This document shows positions 52,413-57,601 of a DNA stretch of 62,719 bases, one piece after another (the first letter of the stretch is position 1; every line of letters begins with the position of its first letter). The position numbers and the translations under genes are program-made. Below the pieces are notes generated by a model. The model saw only the letters and a program-made list of their open reading frames with translations. It was not told where the DNA came from and ran no database searches. The stretch comes from a bacterium endosymbiont of Bathymodiolus sp. 5 South (GTDB lineage: Bacteria > Pseudomonadota > Gammaproteobacteria > PS1 > Pseudothioglobaceae). Location: assembly GCF_900128535.1 (NCBI RefSeq), contig NZ_FQTR01000001.1:1-62719 (forward strand), read 5' to 3'.

Positions 52413-52701
52413 AATAAACAGAAAATAAATATTTTAATCTGTTAATTTTTAAAAACTTTAAGTTGGCACTGACCTATATTTAATCGGATACAGTGCTAGA
52501 TACAAGTGTAGTGCCTCCAAAGCGTGAGTCACCCCACGCCGTGATTGACCCAACTACAAGCACATCCTACTAACACTTTGCGAAAAAATACGCCTGTTTT
52601 TAATTGGATAATATTATCAGATTCAGTGCTTGACTTAATATTAAACCTTTAAAATTTTAGTGATGTTATTACCTTTTAATTCCAATTTTATTTTAAAAAG
52701 C
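52413..52701. other. non-coding stretch before the merR promoter
   Basis: No gene is supported here. GGCACT near 52463 and AGTGCC near 52509 form an inverted pair. Two similar segments (GGATACAGTGCTAGA near 52488, and GATTCAGTGCTTGA near 52620) look like an old imperfect repeat. It may be decayed mobile DNA. Confidence 0.35.
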
Positions 52702-52718
52702 GTAAAGTAACACTTTAC
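52702..52718. promoter_or_regulatory. palindromic operator candidate for the merR-lipid operon
   Basis: GTAAAGT-AAC-ACTTTAC is a perfect dyad with seven-base arms. Its right arm overlaps the -35 hexamer TTTACA of the promoter at 52714-52741. It sits 53 bases before the MerR-family gene, a typical place for autoregulation. Which protein binds is inference; MerR proteins usually bind between -35 and -10. Confidence 0.55.
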
Positions 52719-52741
52719 AATTTTTGTTTTACCAGTATAAT
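52714..52741 (+). promoter_or_regulatory. sigma-70 promoter of the merR-lipid operon
   Basis: TTTACA (52714-52719) and a perfect TATAAT (52736-52741) are 16 bases apart, with the start codon about 30 bases downstream. The short spacer and the overlapping dyad suggest repression by the operon's own regulator. Confidence 0.6.
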
Positions 52742-52770
52742 GCTGATAATTTCTTAAAAAAGTAAATATT

Positions 52771-53412
52771 ATGCTAAAAATGAATGAATTGGTAAGGTTG
52801 AGCGGAGAAAGTAAATCGACACTTATTTATTATTTAAATGATGGTTTGTTGCCTCAACCACAAAGACCCAAGCCCAATGTTGCTTTGTATGATGAAAAAT
52901 GCCTAGAGATTATTAAATTTATTCGTTATTTGCAAAACTCTCTTTATTATTCCATTAGCCAAATCAAAGCAATTCTCACTGGCAGCACCATTAATTTTGA
53001 TGATAGTATTGATATGATTATTAACTCGCTAGAGGTTGTTTCAGTCGGCAATAAAGAGTTTTCTGTTAAAGAGGTTTTGCAAAAAAGTAAAATTTCCCTG
53101 CAAAAATTACAAGCACTGCAAACATTAGAACTCATTAGAGTTGATGATTTTTATTCCCAAAAAGATATTGAAATAATTGATATTCTCATAAAAAGCGAGC
53201 AAACACTAGAATTGCTCAAACATTATGTTAAAAGCGCTAAAGCATTGGCAAAACTAGAAAATAAAATTGGCGTAGAAATATTACAAGAGCAACACAAAAA
53301 CAGCAATACCCACCAAATAATTTTTGACACAGTGTTAAAAGTCAAGCCTTATATTTTTAGCAATCACACTTTACTAGAAAATAAACGCATTCATAATGGA
53401 GACAAATCATGA
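52771..53412 (+). CDS. MerR-family transcriptional regulator
   Basis: The N-terminal winged helix (MNELVRLSGESKSTLIYYLNDGLLPQP) is typical of MerR-like proteins, with the second helical part FIRYLQNSLYYSISQIK. A second HTH-like or helical domain follows (residues about 95-150). No metal-binding cysteines are seen, so a metal sensor is unlikely; a lipid or drug ligand is possible. Starts at 52771 or 52780 are possible. The stop overlaps the next gene (ATGA), making it the first gene of a lipid operon. Confidence 0.82.
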   Translation: MLKMNELVRLSGESKSTLIYYLNDGLLPQPQRPKPNVALYDEKCLEIIKFIRYLQNSLYYSISQIKAILTGSTINFDDSIDMIINSLEVVSVGNKEFSVKEVLQKSKISLQKLQALQTLELIRVDDFYSQKDIEIIDILIKSEQTLELLKHYVKSAKALAKLENKIGVEILQEQHKNSNTHQIIFDTVLKVKPYIFSNHTLLENKRIHNGDKS

Positions 53413-56400
53413 AAAATCTTTATAAAATTAGTGGATTTTTAACTTACTTTTTAATCGTATTCCTTAATGCTTCTGTTGATTTAGGGCACAAGATTGTTTT
53501 ACAAAATACTATTTTTAAAACCTATGATGGCACAGAATTAATGGTTTTAACTGCCATTATTAACGCCTTAATTTTATTACCTTTTGTATTTTTGTTTTCG
53601 CCATCAGGTTTTATTAGTGACAAATATTGCAAAACTAAGATAGTGCAAGTTTCCTCATTTATTGCTATTATTATTACCTCTTTAATCACATTGAGCTATT
53701 ATTTAGGCTATTTTGAAATGGCATTTGTTGCCACATTACTACTCGCCGCCCAAAGCGCTTTTTATTCCCCCGCCAAATACGGACTCATTAAAGAAATGTT
53801 TGGCACCGCTAATGTTGTTAAGGCCAATTCCATCACTCAGGCTATTACCATTATTGCAATTTTATTGGGCGCTGTTATTTATTCTATTTTCTTTGAAAGT
53901 CTTTTAATAGGTGATGTTAATAATAAAGATGAAATACTAAAAATGGTTGCTCCAATTGGCTTTGTGTTAATTATTTCAAGTGTATTTGAGTTTTTGTTGT
54001 CTCTTAAATTGCCAACAACCAAGACTAAAAAAATCACTGATAATTTTGCAATAAAAAAATACTTAACTGGCGGTTATTTTAAGAACAATAACAGCATAAT
54101 CAAAAGCAATAAAGTCATTTGGCATAGCATTATTGGGCTGAGTATTTTTTGGGCAATTTCACAAATTGTTGTTGCTGTCTTTGGCGCATTTTTAAAGTCA
54201 TCTGCTGGCGTAGAAAACACTGTCATTGCCCAGTCTTTGTTAGCAGTTGGCGGTCTTGGTATTATTGTTGGCTCAATGATTGCCAACAAGGTTTCTAAAA
54301 ACTATGTTGAATTAGGTATTGTGCCTTTAGGGAGTCTTGGCGTTGCAATCACTTTATTTATTATTCCTACTTTGCAAAATGTTAATATTATTGCTGGGGT
54401 ATTTTTTATTTACGGTCTTTGTGCTGGTCTTGTGTTGGTGCCACTGAATGCATTAATTCAATTAAGCGCACCCAGTTTTAGTTTGGGTAGAATTTTAGCT
54501 GCCAATAATTTTTATCAAAATGTCTTTATGCTTGTTGCTTTAATTGCTACTGCATCCCTTTCTTATTTACAATTTGATAGTGGTGATATATTGCTGATTG
54601 CCGCAACAATTGCCACTGTTGGAGCGCTTTGGACATTTGTTAAATTACCGCAATCTTTACTAATTTACATAGTGCGCTTTGTATTTAAGCTGCGTTACAA
54701 AATTAACGCCATAGGGGTAGAGAATATTCCTACAAATAAAGGCACTTTATTACTTGGCAACCATGTTTCCTACATTGATTGGGCAATTTTGCAAATAGTT
54801 TACCCACAACAAATTCGCTTTGTTATGGAAAAATCAATTTACAAAAAATGGTATCTTAAATGGTTTTTTGATTTTTTCAAAATAATTCCCATTTCATCAT
54901 CTGGTAGCAAAAATTCCCTCAAAGAAGTGGCAAAAGCACTTAATGACGGTCATACAGTGGCACTTTTTCCAGAAGGAATGTTGACTAGAAATGGTGGAAT
55001 GAATACTTTTTTAGCTGGTTATGAACACATATTAAGAGAAGTTAAAGATTGTGCAATTGTGCCCTTTTATTTACACGGCTTGTGGGAAAGTAAATTCTCT
55101 AATGCAGCAGATAGAATTAAACAAAGTGGTCGCAATATTTGTGTTAAATTTGGCGCAGAACTGCCAACTAACATCAAGGCTGTGCAATTAAAAAATATTG
55201 TTATTGATTTAAGCGTTGATGTTTGGCACAACTATATTAATCAGCAAAAAGATATTGCCAGTCTATGGATTGAACAAATAAAGAAGAAAAATAATTTTTA
55301 TGTAGCAGACTCCACAGGCATGAATTTAAACGCTAATAAATTTTTAGCCGCCACGCTATTAATGCGCAAATGGCTAAAAAATAAATTAGGAAATAATAAT
55401 AACATAGCGGTAATACTGCCTGCAACAGTTGCTGGTGCCATGTGTAATATGTCTTTATTTTGTTTGGCTAAAACAGTCGTTAATCTTAACTACACAACTG
55501 GAATACAGCCCTTGAAGTTGGCTATTAAAAAAGCGGACATACAAACCATTATTACCAGCAAAAAATTTATTAAAAAATTACAAGGTAAAGGCTTTGATTT
55601 AAGTGAAGTGCTTAACAATGGCAATGTTATTTACTTAGAAGATATGCAAAAATTTGCACACAAATTACGGGCAATTGGTTATTTTTTACGGGCAACATTC
55701 TACCCAGTATGGCTCTTAAAATTATTATTTATTACCAAAGTAAAAATCACAAAGACTGCTGTGATTTTATTTAGTAGTGGTAGCGAGGGTACGCCCAAAG
55801 GCATCATGTTAAGCCATAAAAACTTAATTGCTAATGTTAAACAAGTAATAACAATGCTCAACCCAAGCTTAAACGATAAAATAATGGGCACACTGCCAAA
55901 TTTTCATTCTTTTGGATTAACAGTTTGCACGCTGATGCCCCAACTTGAAGGCATTCCTGTTATTTATCATCCAGATCCAACAGATGGCTACGGTATTGGT
56001 AAGTTGGTAACCGAACATAAGGCAACTATTTTGCTTGGCACTGCGACATTTTTTCGCTTGTATTTGCGTAATAGAAAACTCCAACCTTTAATGTTAGCAA
56101 GCATTAGACTGGTAGTTGCTGGCGCTGAAAAACTACCTAATAAAATACTTGATGACTTTAAACAAAAGTTTGGATTAGATATTTATGAAGGCTATGGAAC
56201 CACAGAAACTGCACCTGTTGCAAGTAGCAATATTCCAAATGCACTGGTGCCAAAATATTGGAAAATTCAACAAGGGCAAAAAACGGGCACTATTGGCAAA
56301 CCATTAGTAGGCACAAGCATTATTATTACTGACCCTAATAGTTTTGAAGTATTAAAACAAGGTGATGCTGGGATGATTTTAATTTCAGGACCTCAAGTAA

Positions 56401-56849
56401 TGCAAGGCTATTTAAATGATCCTGCTCAAACAAACGCGGTAATAAAAACCATCAATAACAACAGGTACTACATCACTGGCGACAAAGGTAAGATTGATCA
56501 AGATGGCTTTGTTACTATTGTTGACAGATACTCTCGTTTTGCAAAAATTGGTGGCGAAATGATTAGCCTAGGCAGCTGTGAAGAGCAAATGAGTGTTTGT
56601 TTGGGTGATGAAATTGAAATAGCGGCTACCAATTTAACCGATGTTAAAAAAGGTGAAAAGATAGTATTGTTATTTACTGGAGACATGACACAAGAGGCAC
56701 TAAAACAAAAATTAATTGCCGCACAAATTAACCCATTGTATTTGCCTAGTTCTTACCACAAGGTAGAAGTTTTGCCAAAATTAGGAACAGGTAAAGCAGA
56801 TTTTAAAGGTATTAAAAAACTTGCGCAACACTTGGAGGCGGGCGAATGA
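53409..56849 (+). CDS. three-domain LplT-PlsC-Aas fusion (lysophospholipid transport, acyltransferase and acyl-ACP synthetase)
   Basis: The 1146-residue protein has three parts. Residues about 1-415 are an MFS transporter like LplT (about twelve helices). Residues about 430-630 are a PlsC-type acyltransferase with HX4D in GNHVSYIDW (near 450) and FPEGMLTRNG (near 519). Residues about 640-1146 are an AMP-forming acyl-ACP synthetase with FSSGSEGTPKGI (near 785), EGYGTTETAP (near 926) and TGDKG. It should import lysophospholipid, activate free fatty acid and reacylate the lipid. E. coli has these on two genes (lplT, aas). Confidence 0.92.
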   Translation: MKNLYKISGFLTYFLIVFLNASVDLGHKIVLQNTIFKTYDGTELMVLTAIINALILLPFVFLFSPSGFISDKYCKTKIVQVSSFIAIIITSLITLSYYLGYFEMAFVATLLLAAQSAFYSPAKYGLIKEMFGTANVVKANSITQAITIIAILLGAVIYSIFFESLLIGDVNNKDEILKMVAPIGFVLIISSVFEFLLSLKLPTTKTKKITDNFAIKKYLTGGYFKNNNSIIKSNKVIWHSIIGLSIFWAISQIVVAVFGAFLKSSAGVENTVIAQSLLAVGGLGIIVGSMIANKVSKNYVELGIVPLGSLGVAITLFIIPTLQNVNIIAGVFFIYGLCAGLVLVPLNALIQLSAPSFSLGRILAANNFYQNVFMLVALIATASLSYLQFDSGDILLIAATIATVGALWTFVKLPQSLLIYIVRFVFKLRYKINAIGVENIPTNKGTLLLGNHVSYIDWAILQIVYPQQIRFVMEKSIYKKWYLKWFFDFFKIIPISSSGSKNSLKEVAKALNDGHTVALFPEGMLTRNGGMNTFLAGYEHILREVKDCAIVPFYLHGLWESKFSNAADRIKQSGRNICVKFGAELPTNIKAVQLKNIVIDLSVDVWHNYINQQKDIASLWIEQIKKKNNFYVADSTGMNLNANKFLAATLLMRKWLKNKLGNNNNIAVILPATVAGAMCNMSLFCLAKTVVNLNYTTGIQPLKLAIKKADIQTIITSKKFIKKLQGKGFDLSEVLNNGNVIYLEDMQKFAHKLRAIGYFLRATFYPVWLLKLLFITKVKITKTAVILFSSGSEGTPKGIMLSHKNLIANVKQVITMLNPSLNDKIMGTLPNFHSFGLTVCTLMPQLEGIPVIYHPDPTDGYGIGKLVTEHKATILLGTATFFRLYLRNRKLQPLMLASIRLVVAGAEKLPNKILDDFKQKFGLDIYEGYGTTETAPVASSNIPNALVPKYWKIQQGQKTGTIGKPLVGTSIIITDPNSFEVLKQGDAGMILISGPQVMQGYLNDPAQTNAVIKTINNNRYYITGDKGKIDQDGFVTIVDRYSRFAKIGGEMISLGSCEEQMSVCLGDEIEIAATNLTDVKKGEKIVLLFTGDMTQEALKQKLIAAQINPLYLPSSYHKVEVLPKLGTGKADFKGIKKLAQHLEAGE

Positions 56850-57601
56850 CAAATATTCAAAAACTAACAATCAAATTAATATTATTAATCAGTTTTGTCA
56901 TAACGCTCATCATGTTTTTACAAGATCCAATTCCACAAAGTGTCAAATACCATAGTTTTGTTGATGACAGAGGTATGTTTGGGGTTGTTAATTTTTACAA
57001 TGTTATTTCTAATTTTCCTTTTTTATTGGTTGGAATTTACGCAATAATATTATTGAAAAACAATAAGTTAGACATTAGTGACAACATAAAATATATGTAT
57101 TACACTATGTTTTTTGGCGTTGTTATGGTATTTTTTGGCTCTAGTTATTTTCATCTTGATGTTAGGCATGAAACATTATTTTTGGACAGATTGCCGATGG
57201 TAATTGTCTTTATGGCACTTTTTTCCATTGTCATTAGTGAGTTTATTAGTTTAAAAATTGGTAAAAAACTATTTATTCCATTAATGGCATTAGGTTTGTT
57301 TACTATTGTTTATTGGATTATTGGCGAGCATTATGGATCTGGGGATTTACGCGGGTATCTTTTAGTGCAGTTTTTACCCATGTTGATTATGCCAATTATT
57401 TTGCTAAGTTTTAAACGCAAATCAGCTAAAGCGTATTGGTATTTGCTATTATTTTATGTTTTTGCAAAATTATTTGAGTATTTTGATGGGCAAATATTTG
57501 AATTATTTGGGTTTATTAGTGGACATTCAATTAAACATGTGGTTGCAGCACTTGGGTTATTGATTTTTTTACTTATAGAGAAAAAAGACTCAAAGCATTA
57601 A
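56846..57601 (+). CDS. ceramidase-like (CREST superfamily) membrane protein
   Basis: This 251-residue protein has about seven hydrophobic helices. Conserved polar positions fit the alkaline ceramidase/CREST metal-hydrolase pattern: NVISNFPFLLVG, GSSYFHLDVRHETLFLDRLPM (Ser, His and Asp) and GHSIKHVVAA with two late His near residue 227. It might cleave an amide or ester in a membrane lipid, releasing fatty acid. Its start overlaps the stop of the fusion gene (ATGA), so the fatty-acid link is plausible. Substrate unknown. Confidence 0.78.
   Translation: MTNIQKLTIKLILLISFVITLIMFLQDPIPQSVKYHSFVDDRGMFGVVNFYNVISNFPFLLVGIYAIILLKNNKLDISDNIKYMYYTMFFGVVMVFFGSSYFHLDVRHETLFLDRLPMVIVFMALFSIVISEFISLKIGKKLFIPLMALGLFTIVYWIIGEHYGSGDLRGYLLVQFLPMLIMPIILLSFKRKSAKAYWYLLLFYVFAKLFEYFDGQIFELFGFISGHSIKHVVAALGLLIFLLIEKKDSKH

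Follow-up and report, generated by a model that had tools for sequence, protein, structure and literature searches.

A three-gene operon in the window (the whole stretch of 62,719 nucleotides analysed here) is probably an inducible unit for the repair and salvage of membrane lipids, in which a CREST-superfamily protein would act as a zinc-dependent intramembrane hydrolase, releasing an amide- or ester-linked acyl chain from membrane lipids that are damaged or of foreign origin; we give this reading a probability of roughly 0.55. We favor it because the genes overlap, the promoter proximal to the regulator gene (merR) is conserved, the central gene encodes an LplT-Aas type fusion, the CREST protein has an ACER3-like site and predicted fold, and CREST genes recurrently keep company with repair genes. 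In the mechanism that we propose, the MerR-type protein would regulate the operon from one promoter, the PlsC domain of the fusion would reacylate lysolipid to diacyl phospholipid, and the C-terminal domain of the fusion would activate free fatty acid onto ACP; the CREST protein might either supply fatty acid to this synthetase or clear lipids that the acyltransferase cannot mend. We infer the hydrolase activity of the CREST protein and its substrate, the induction signal, the direction of regulation, and co-transcription.

Organization and distribution of the operon

An earlier note, made from the DNA letters, had described three genes joined at ATGA junctions, and we confirmed the reading frames, their coordinates, and a four-base ATGA overlap at each of the merR/fusion and fusion/CREST junctions. 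The features are:

52698..52770, + strand: promoter region, with -35, -10 and dyads upstream of merR
52771-53412, + strand: MerR-type regulator gene (ORF of 213 aa)
53409-56849, + strand: LplT-PlsC-acyl-ACP synthetase fusion gene, acyl-[ACP]--phospholipid O-acyltransferase (ORF of 1146 aa)
56846-57601, + strand: gene for a probable CREST-superfamily membrane hydrolase, PF05875 (ORF of 251 aa)

The site of the stretch most like a sigma70 promoter (11/12) consists of TTTACA at 52714-52719, a 16-nt spacer, and TATAAT at 52736-52741; classic MerR promoters have spacers of 19-20 nt, their operator lying between the -35 and the -10. The dyad GTAAAGT-AAC-ACTTTAC (inverted repeat I2) lies at the -35, and a near-dyad, TTACCAG-N7-CTGATAA, read by eye from the alignment, surrounds the -10.

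Among 83 genomes sampled from the order, all of one family, the trio occurs in two, the source genome (G000) and that of a sister species (G051), at 92-94% identity; the CREST gene is 92% identical between them and its ATGA overlap is kept. The earlier judgment that this is not a standard arrangement was thus correct, and linkage in relatives, whose lack would have counted against the earlier reading, is seen for the full trio in one sister species only. Roughly the last 100 bp 5' of merR are conserved between the two genomes, promoter and dyads included, and the sequences diverge 5' of that point and 3' of the CREST gene. This pattern fits a single transcription unit that has occupied two different places. 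Since the intact trio is found in two species it may be transient, and we regard it as a known fusion core in an unusual, recent operon.

Elsewhere in the order, G074 has the CREST gene alone, and three genomes of the same genus as the source (G058, G059, and G053) have only a C-terminal CREST stretch, residues 177-247, beside plsY (identified by Pfam in G059). This stretch appears to be a decayed CREST gene, its decay independent of the trio. Also next to plsY is a 534-aa protein that joins a class-V aminotransferase domain to an Acetyltransf_5 (GNAT) domain, the latter scoring under the Pfam cut-off. These features lie at:

L112:5485-5733, L113:10514-10735, L114:10140-10376: CREST C-terminal remnant beside plsY, one in each of the three genomes
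L112:3315-4919, L113:11327-12931, L114:7965-9569: 534-aa GNAT/aminotransferase protein

The fusion and the MerR-type protein

By sequence, the fusion is a member of an already known LplT-Aas fusion type: it matches NCBIfam NF006386/PRK08633 end to end, over residues 1-1142, with 1428.5 bits (cut-off 1221). Pfam places MFS_1, Acyltransferase, and AMP-binding domains along it in that order, and the PlsC motifs (NHVSYID at 451, FPEG at 520) and the adenylation motif of the AMP-binding domain (SSGSEGTPK at 789) are intact, which together support the earlier proposal of lysolipid uptake, fatty-acid activation, and reacylation. LplT/Aas, which reacylates lysolipids, shields E. coli from phospholipase, and the fused type has been described (PMC11416262). 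The three activities would be expected to be alike in E. coli lplT-aas, its fused relatives, and the operon's fusion; the difference is that the other members found here are solitary or stand beside an XRE/HTH_26 regulator, whereas here MerR-type and CREST genes have joined. No MerR or CREST gene adjoins the closest other fusion, that of G003, on its two contig ends.

Of the 23 loci that score over the cut-off, 8 have an XRE/HTH_26 regulator near the fusion, as does G278, and such a protein may be the usual regulator of the LplT-Aas system. Regulators of this kind with a long C-terminal domain stand beside LplT-Aas in L075, L080, L081, L083, L086, L087, L093, L097, and L105:12641-13384.

The operon's own MerR-type protein matches Pfam MerR_1 (48.3 bits) and scores under the cut-offs of all NCBIfam MerR equivalogs (best 32 bits against 151), those of the classic metal sensors MerR, CueR, ZntR, and CadR included. 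Across the order's 83 genomes it has one ortholog only, the 92% identical protein of G051, and no MerR homolog was found in the flanks of other full-length fusions. On these grounds we rejected a trio conserved across the gammaproteobacteria. A literature search for MerR with Aas returned off-topic papers only.

Neighbors of bacterial CREST genes

A 2011 survey of the superfamily found bacterial groups related to alkaline ceramidases but without function, and its neighborhood analysis was uninformative (PMC3146951). What is new here is the company kept by the bacterial family: LplT-Aas, Arc3A/DUF2339, lipase, phospholipase D-like (PLD), and PspA genes. We gathered 80 loci by CREST similarity alone, regardless of neighbors, and scanned their flanks with LplT-Aas and DUF2339 profiles. 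LplT/Aas was near 2 (0.14 expected) and DUF2339, picked post hoc after the neighbors had been viewed, near 2 (0.041 expected). These expectations are approximate, since gammaproteobacteria alone supplied the background rates, and loci that are related do not count independently. In L191 (NC10, a Methylomirabilis MAG) LplT-Aas is followed by a PAP2_C/AtPDCT-like gene and then CREST; in L138 (a betaproteobacterium MAG) LplT-PlsC is followed by DUF2339 and then CREST, with overlapping ends; and in L174 (a Sulfurovum MAG) CREST is followed by DUF2339; all three are from MAGs, whose contigs may be mis-binned. The gene between LplT-Aas and CREST in L191 (3234-4124) encodes a protein of the head-group transferase type.

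In the class sample, a lipase-CREST gene pair is present in all six genomes of one family that carry this CREST gene, followed by an intact PLD gene in four of them, by fragments in G744, and by none in G733. A PspA/IM30 gene lies upstream of the pair on the same strand in G743. In L245 (4965-10171), PspA/IM30, a Pfam-less membrane protein, lipase, CREST, and PLD share one strand, an arrangement that looks like a membrane-stress operon. Aas-LplT is near the lipase-CREST-PLD operon in G278, where 2.8 kb separate Aas from CREST; a weaker case is that of G175 and G295, where LplT-PlsC lies ~4.7 kb from CREST with other genes between.

Repair-linked CREST proteins are scattered over a quick tree of 91 rows with 6 changes, many of its inner branches being poorly supported, and the association therefore either arose repeatedly or is old and mostly lost. 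Some 85 of the 91 loci have no recognized lipid-repair neighbor. Because most CREST genes have unrelated neighbors, we conclude that CREST and lipid-repair genes form a recurrent association and not a fixed system. At the level of genomes, CREST and LplT/Aas occur together mildly more often than by chance (24/37 against 143/332 for matches over the cut-off, p 0.009; p 0.026 counting all matches), and PF05875 and DUF2339 occur together at chance (9 against 8.5 expected). No general operon partner of CREST emerged, the recognized repeated neighbors, e.g. folD, looking like lineage inheritance. An acyl-CoA-ligase-like neighbor in L141 was rejected as LplT-Aas, its 56-bit match covering the synthetase part only. 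Literature searches linking DUF2339 with ceramidase, or on "ceramidase domain-containing protein," found nothing, and one on mussel-symbiont phospholipase found nothing usable.

The same data bear on whether the CREST gene is instead a passenger, a mobile orphan that came to lie behind the fusion by chance and has a lipid role unrelated to it. PF05875 is a singleton family with heterogeneous neighbors in most genomes; its genes also occur on plasmids, with no lipid neighbors among the annotated relatives there; and most of the order lacks the CREST gene, which in sister species has decayed at a different site. With 28% GC where the window has 38%, the operon's CREST gene may have been acquired recently. 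Chance placement fits poorly, however, with an ATGA overlap and 92% identity kept in the sister species and with the recurrence of CREST genes beside lipid-repair genes across unrelated lineages, and we consider the passenger explanation doubtful, though a serious contender.

The CREST protein as a candidate lipid hydrolase

The CREST protein matches Pfam Ceramidase (PF05875) with 46.1 bits against a curated gathering cut-off of 32.5. In a phmmer alignment, with numbers following from chain coordinates, S77, H81, and D92 of human ACER3 align with S99, H103, and D114, and H227 and H231 form the second metal motif, HxxxH; all five residues are invariant in 13 bacterial relatives of 34-92% identity. 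The metal-site residues whose lack would have spoken against the earlier assignment, a CREST membrane protein with a three-His/Asp/Ser site, are therefore in place. An AlphaFold model built from the relatives' alignment (pLDDT 92.5) has the seven-helix CREST fold, and ACER3 (6g7o) is its first structural match (Foldseek E 1.5e-4), no other solved structure coming in below E 1e-3. ACER3 also ranks first by VIA (rmsd 3.5 A over 202 residues), with a Z of 16.5 to be read against the 13-15 of unrelated seven-helix receptors. In ACER3, activity is lost when the equivalent His or Asp is mutated and falls ~600-fold with S77A (PMC9436119). Because of this site, the ACER3-like predicted fold, and the ACER3 mutant data, we assign the protein to the CREST superfamily, and hydrolase chemistry is likely.

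The likeness to ACER3 thus lies in the Ser/3-His/Asp active site and the predicted seven-helix fold. The two differ in that identity in the structural alignment is ~15%, that ACER3 Glu33 aligns with Asn49 here, and that the operon's protein belongs to a bacterial group without known substrate, in a genome without detected sphingolipid synthesis. That genome has nine PF00155 proteins, and of the four scanned with NCBIfam just one, bioF, is an alpha-oxoamine synthase (407 bits with the bioF model); no serine palmitoyltransferase was clearly found among these four, bioF reaching 254 bits against a serine palmitoyltransferase cut-off of 640. The remaining PF00155 matches were either named from the start of the sequence only or were too weak. 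As serine palmitoyltransferase models score far below their cut-offs, sphingolipid synthesis by the organism itself is unlikely from its genes; such a pathway would be supportive of an alkaline ceramidase, not strictly defining. The ceramide-like substrate of the earlier note accordingly found no support, and host ceramide is a possible substrate, likewise unsupported.

A true ceramidase would cleave ceramide from the host animal or the environment, leaving the fusion to use the freed fatty acid. The lineage, gammaproteobacterial and probably one of marine symbionts by our reading of genome sizes in its genus, may be host-associated, and imported ceramide would make an own ceramide pathway unnecessary; ACER3 is moreover the closest solved fold, with its catalytic residues retained. 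Against these points, the scanned proteins showed no serine palmitoyltransferase that would provide an own substrate, most members of the family come from methanotrophs, Woeseiaceae, Flavobacteriaceae, and others that appear to be free-living, the lipid genes next to it are phospholipid genes, and the bacterial group, for which no function is known, stands apart from the eukaryotic ceramidases (PMC3146951). We regard a true ceramidase as quite improbable. Least probable of all is a sensory role, in which the protein would signal on binding a lipid or fatty acid, the mode of action suggested for PAQR/AdipoR-like members: AdipoR and SIDT structures, with myomaker, are among the fold matches, but ACER3 ranks first, the full catalytic Ser/His/Asp set is invariant in the 13 relatives, and no partner domain or signaling gene accompanies the protein.

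A possible wider role in membrane repair

Membrane-lipid repair and salvage, the reading that we prefer for this operon, is reminiscent of the Arc3 system of Pseudomonas aeruginosa, in which Arc3A, that is DUF2339, prevents the lysophospholipid accumulation caused by a phospholipase toxin (PMC8926400). In many bacteria aas genes neighbor arc3 genes (PMC8926400), and the CREST family adjoins DUF2339 in the betaproteobacterium and Sulfurovum loci. The systems differ in that Arc3 is under Gac/Rsm regulation and no CREST protein has been described in it; a search of the source genome for DUF2339 (PF10101) gave no match, which sets the operon outside Arc3.

The neighbors of CREST genes hint that the family plays an unrecognized part in repairing membranes and not in ceramide metabolism. 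We put forward, tentatively and as less probable than not, that the PF05875/CREST proteins of bacteria serve as lipid hydrolases in a network for membrane repair and defense against phospholipases, that they have repeatedly been drawn into operons with genes for LplT-Aas, DUF2339/Arc3A, lipase, phospholipase-D-like proteins, and PspA, and that they act on lysophospholipids or damaged phospholipids and not on ceramide. The testable form of this idea is that bacterial CREST proteins hydrolyze such lipids and protect against phospholipase attack. If true, it would caution against automatic annotation, which labels such CREST proteins "ceramide metabolic process." Finally, a lipase gene lies directly 3' of the LplT-Aas fusion in L080 (799-1461), and its product is of the same family as the CREST-adjacent lipase of G278.
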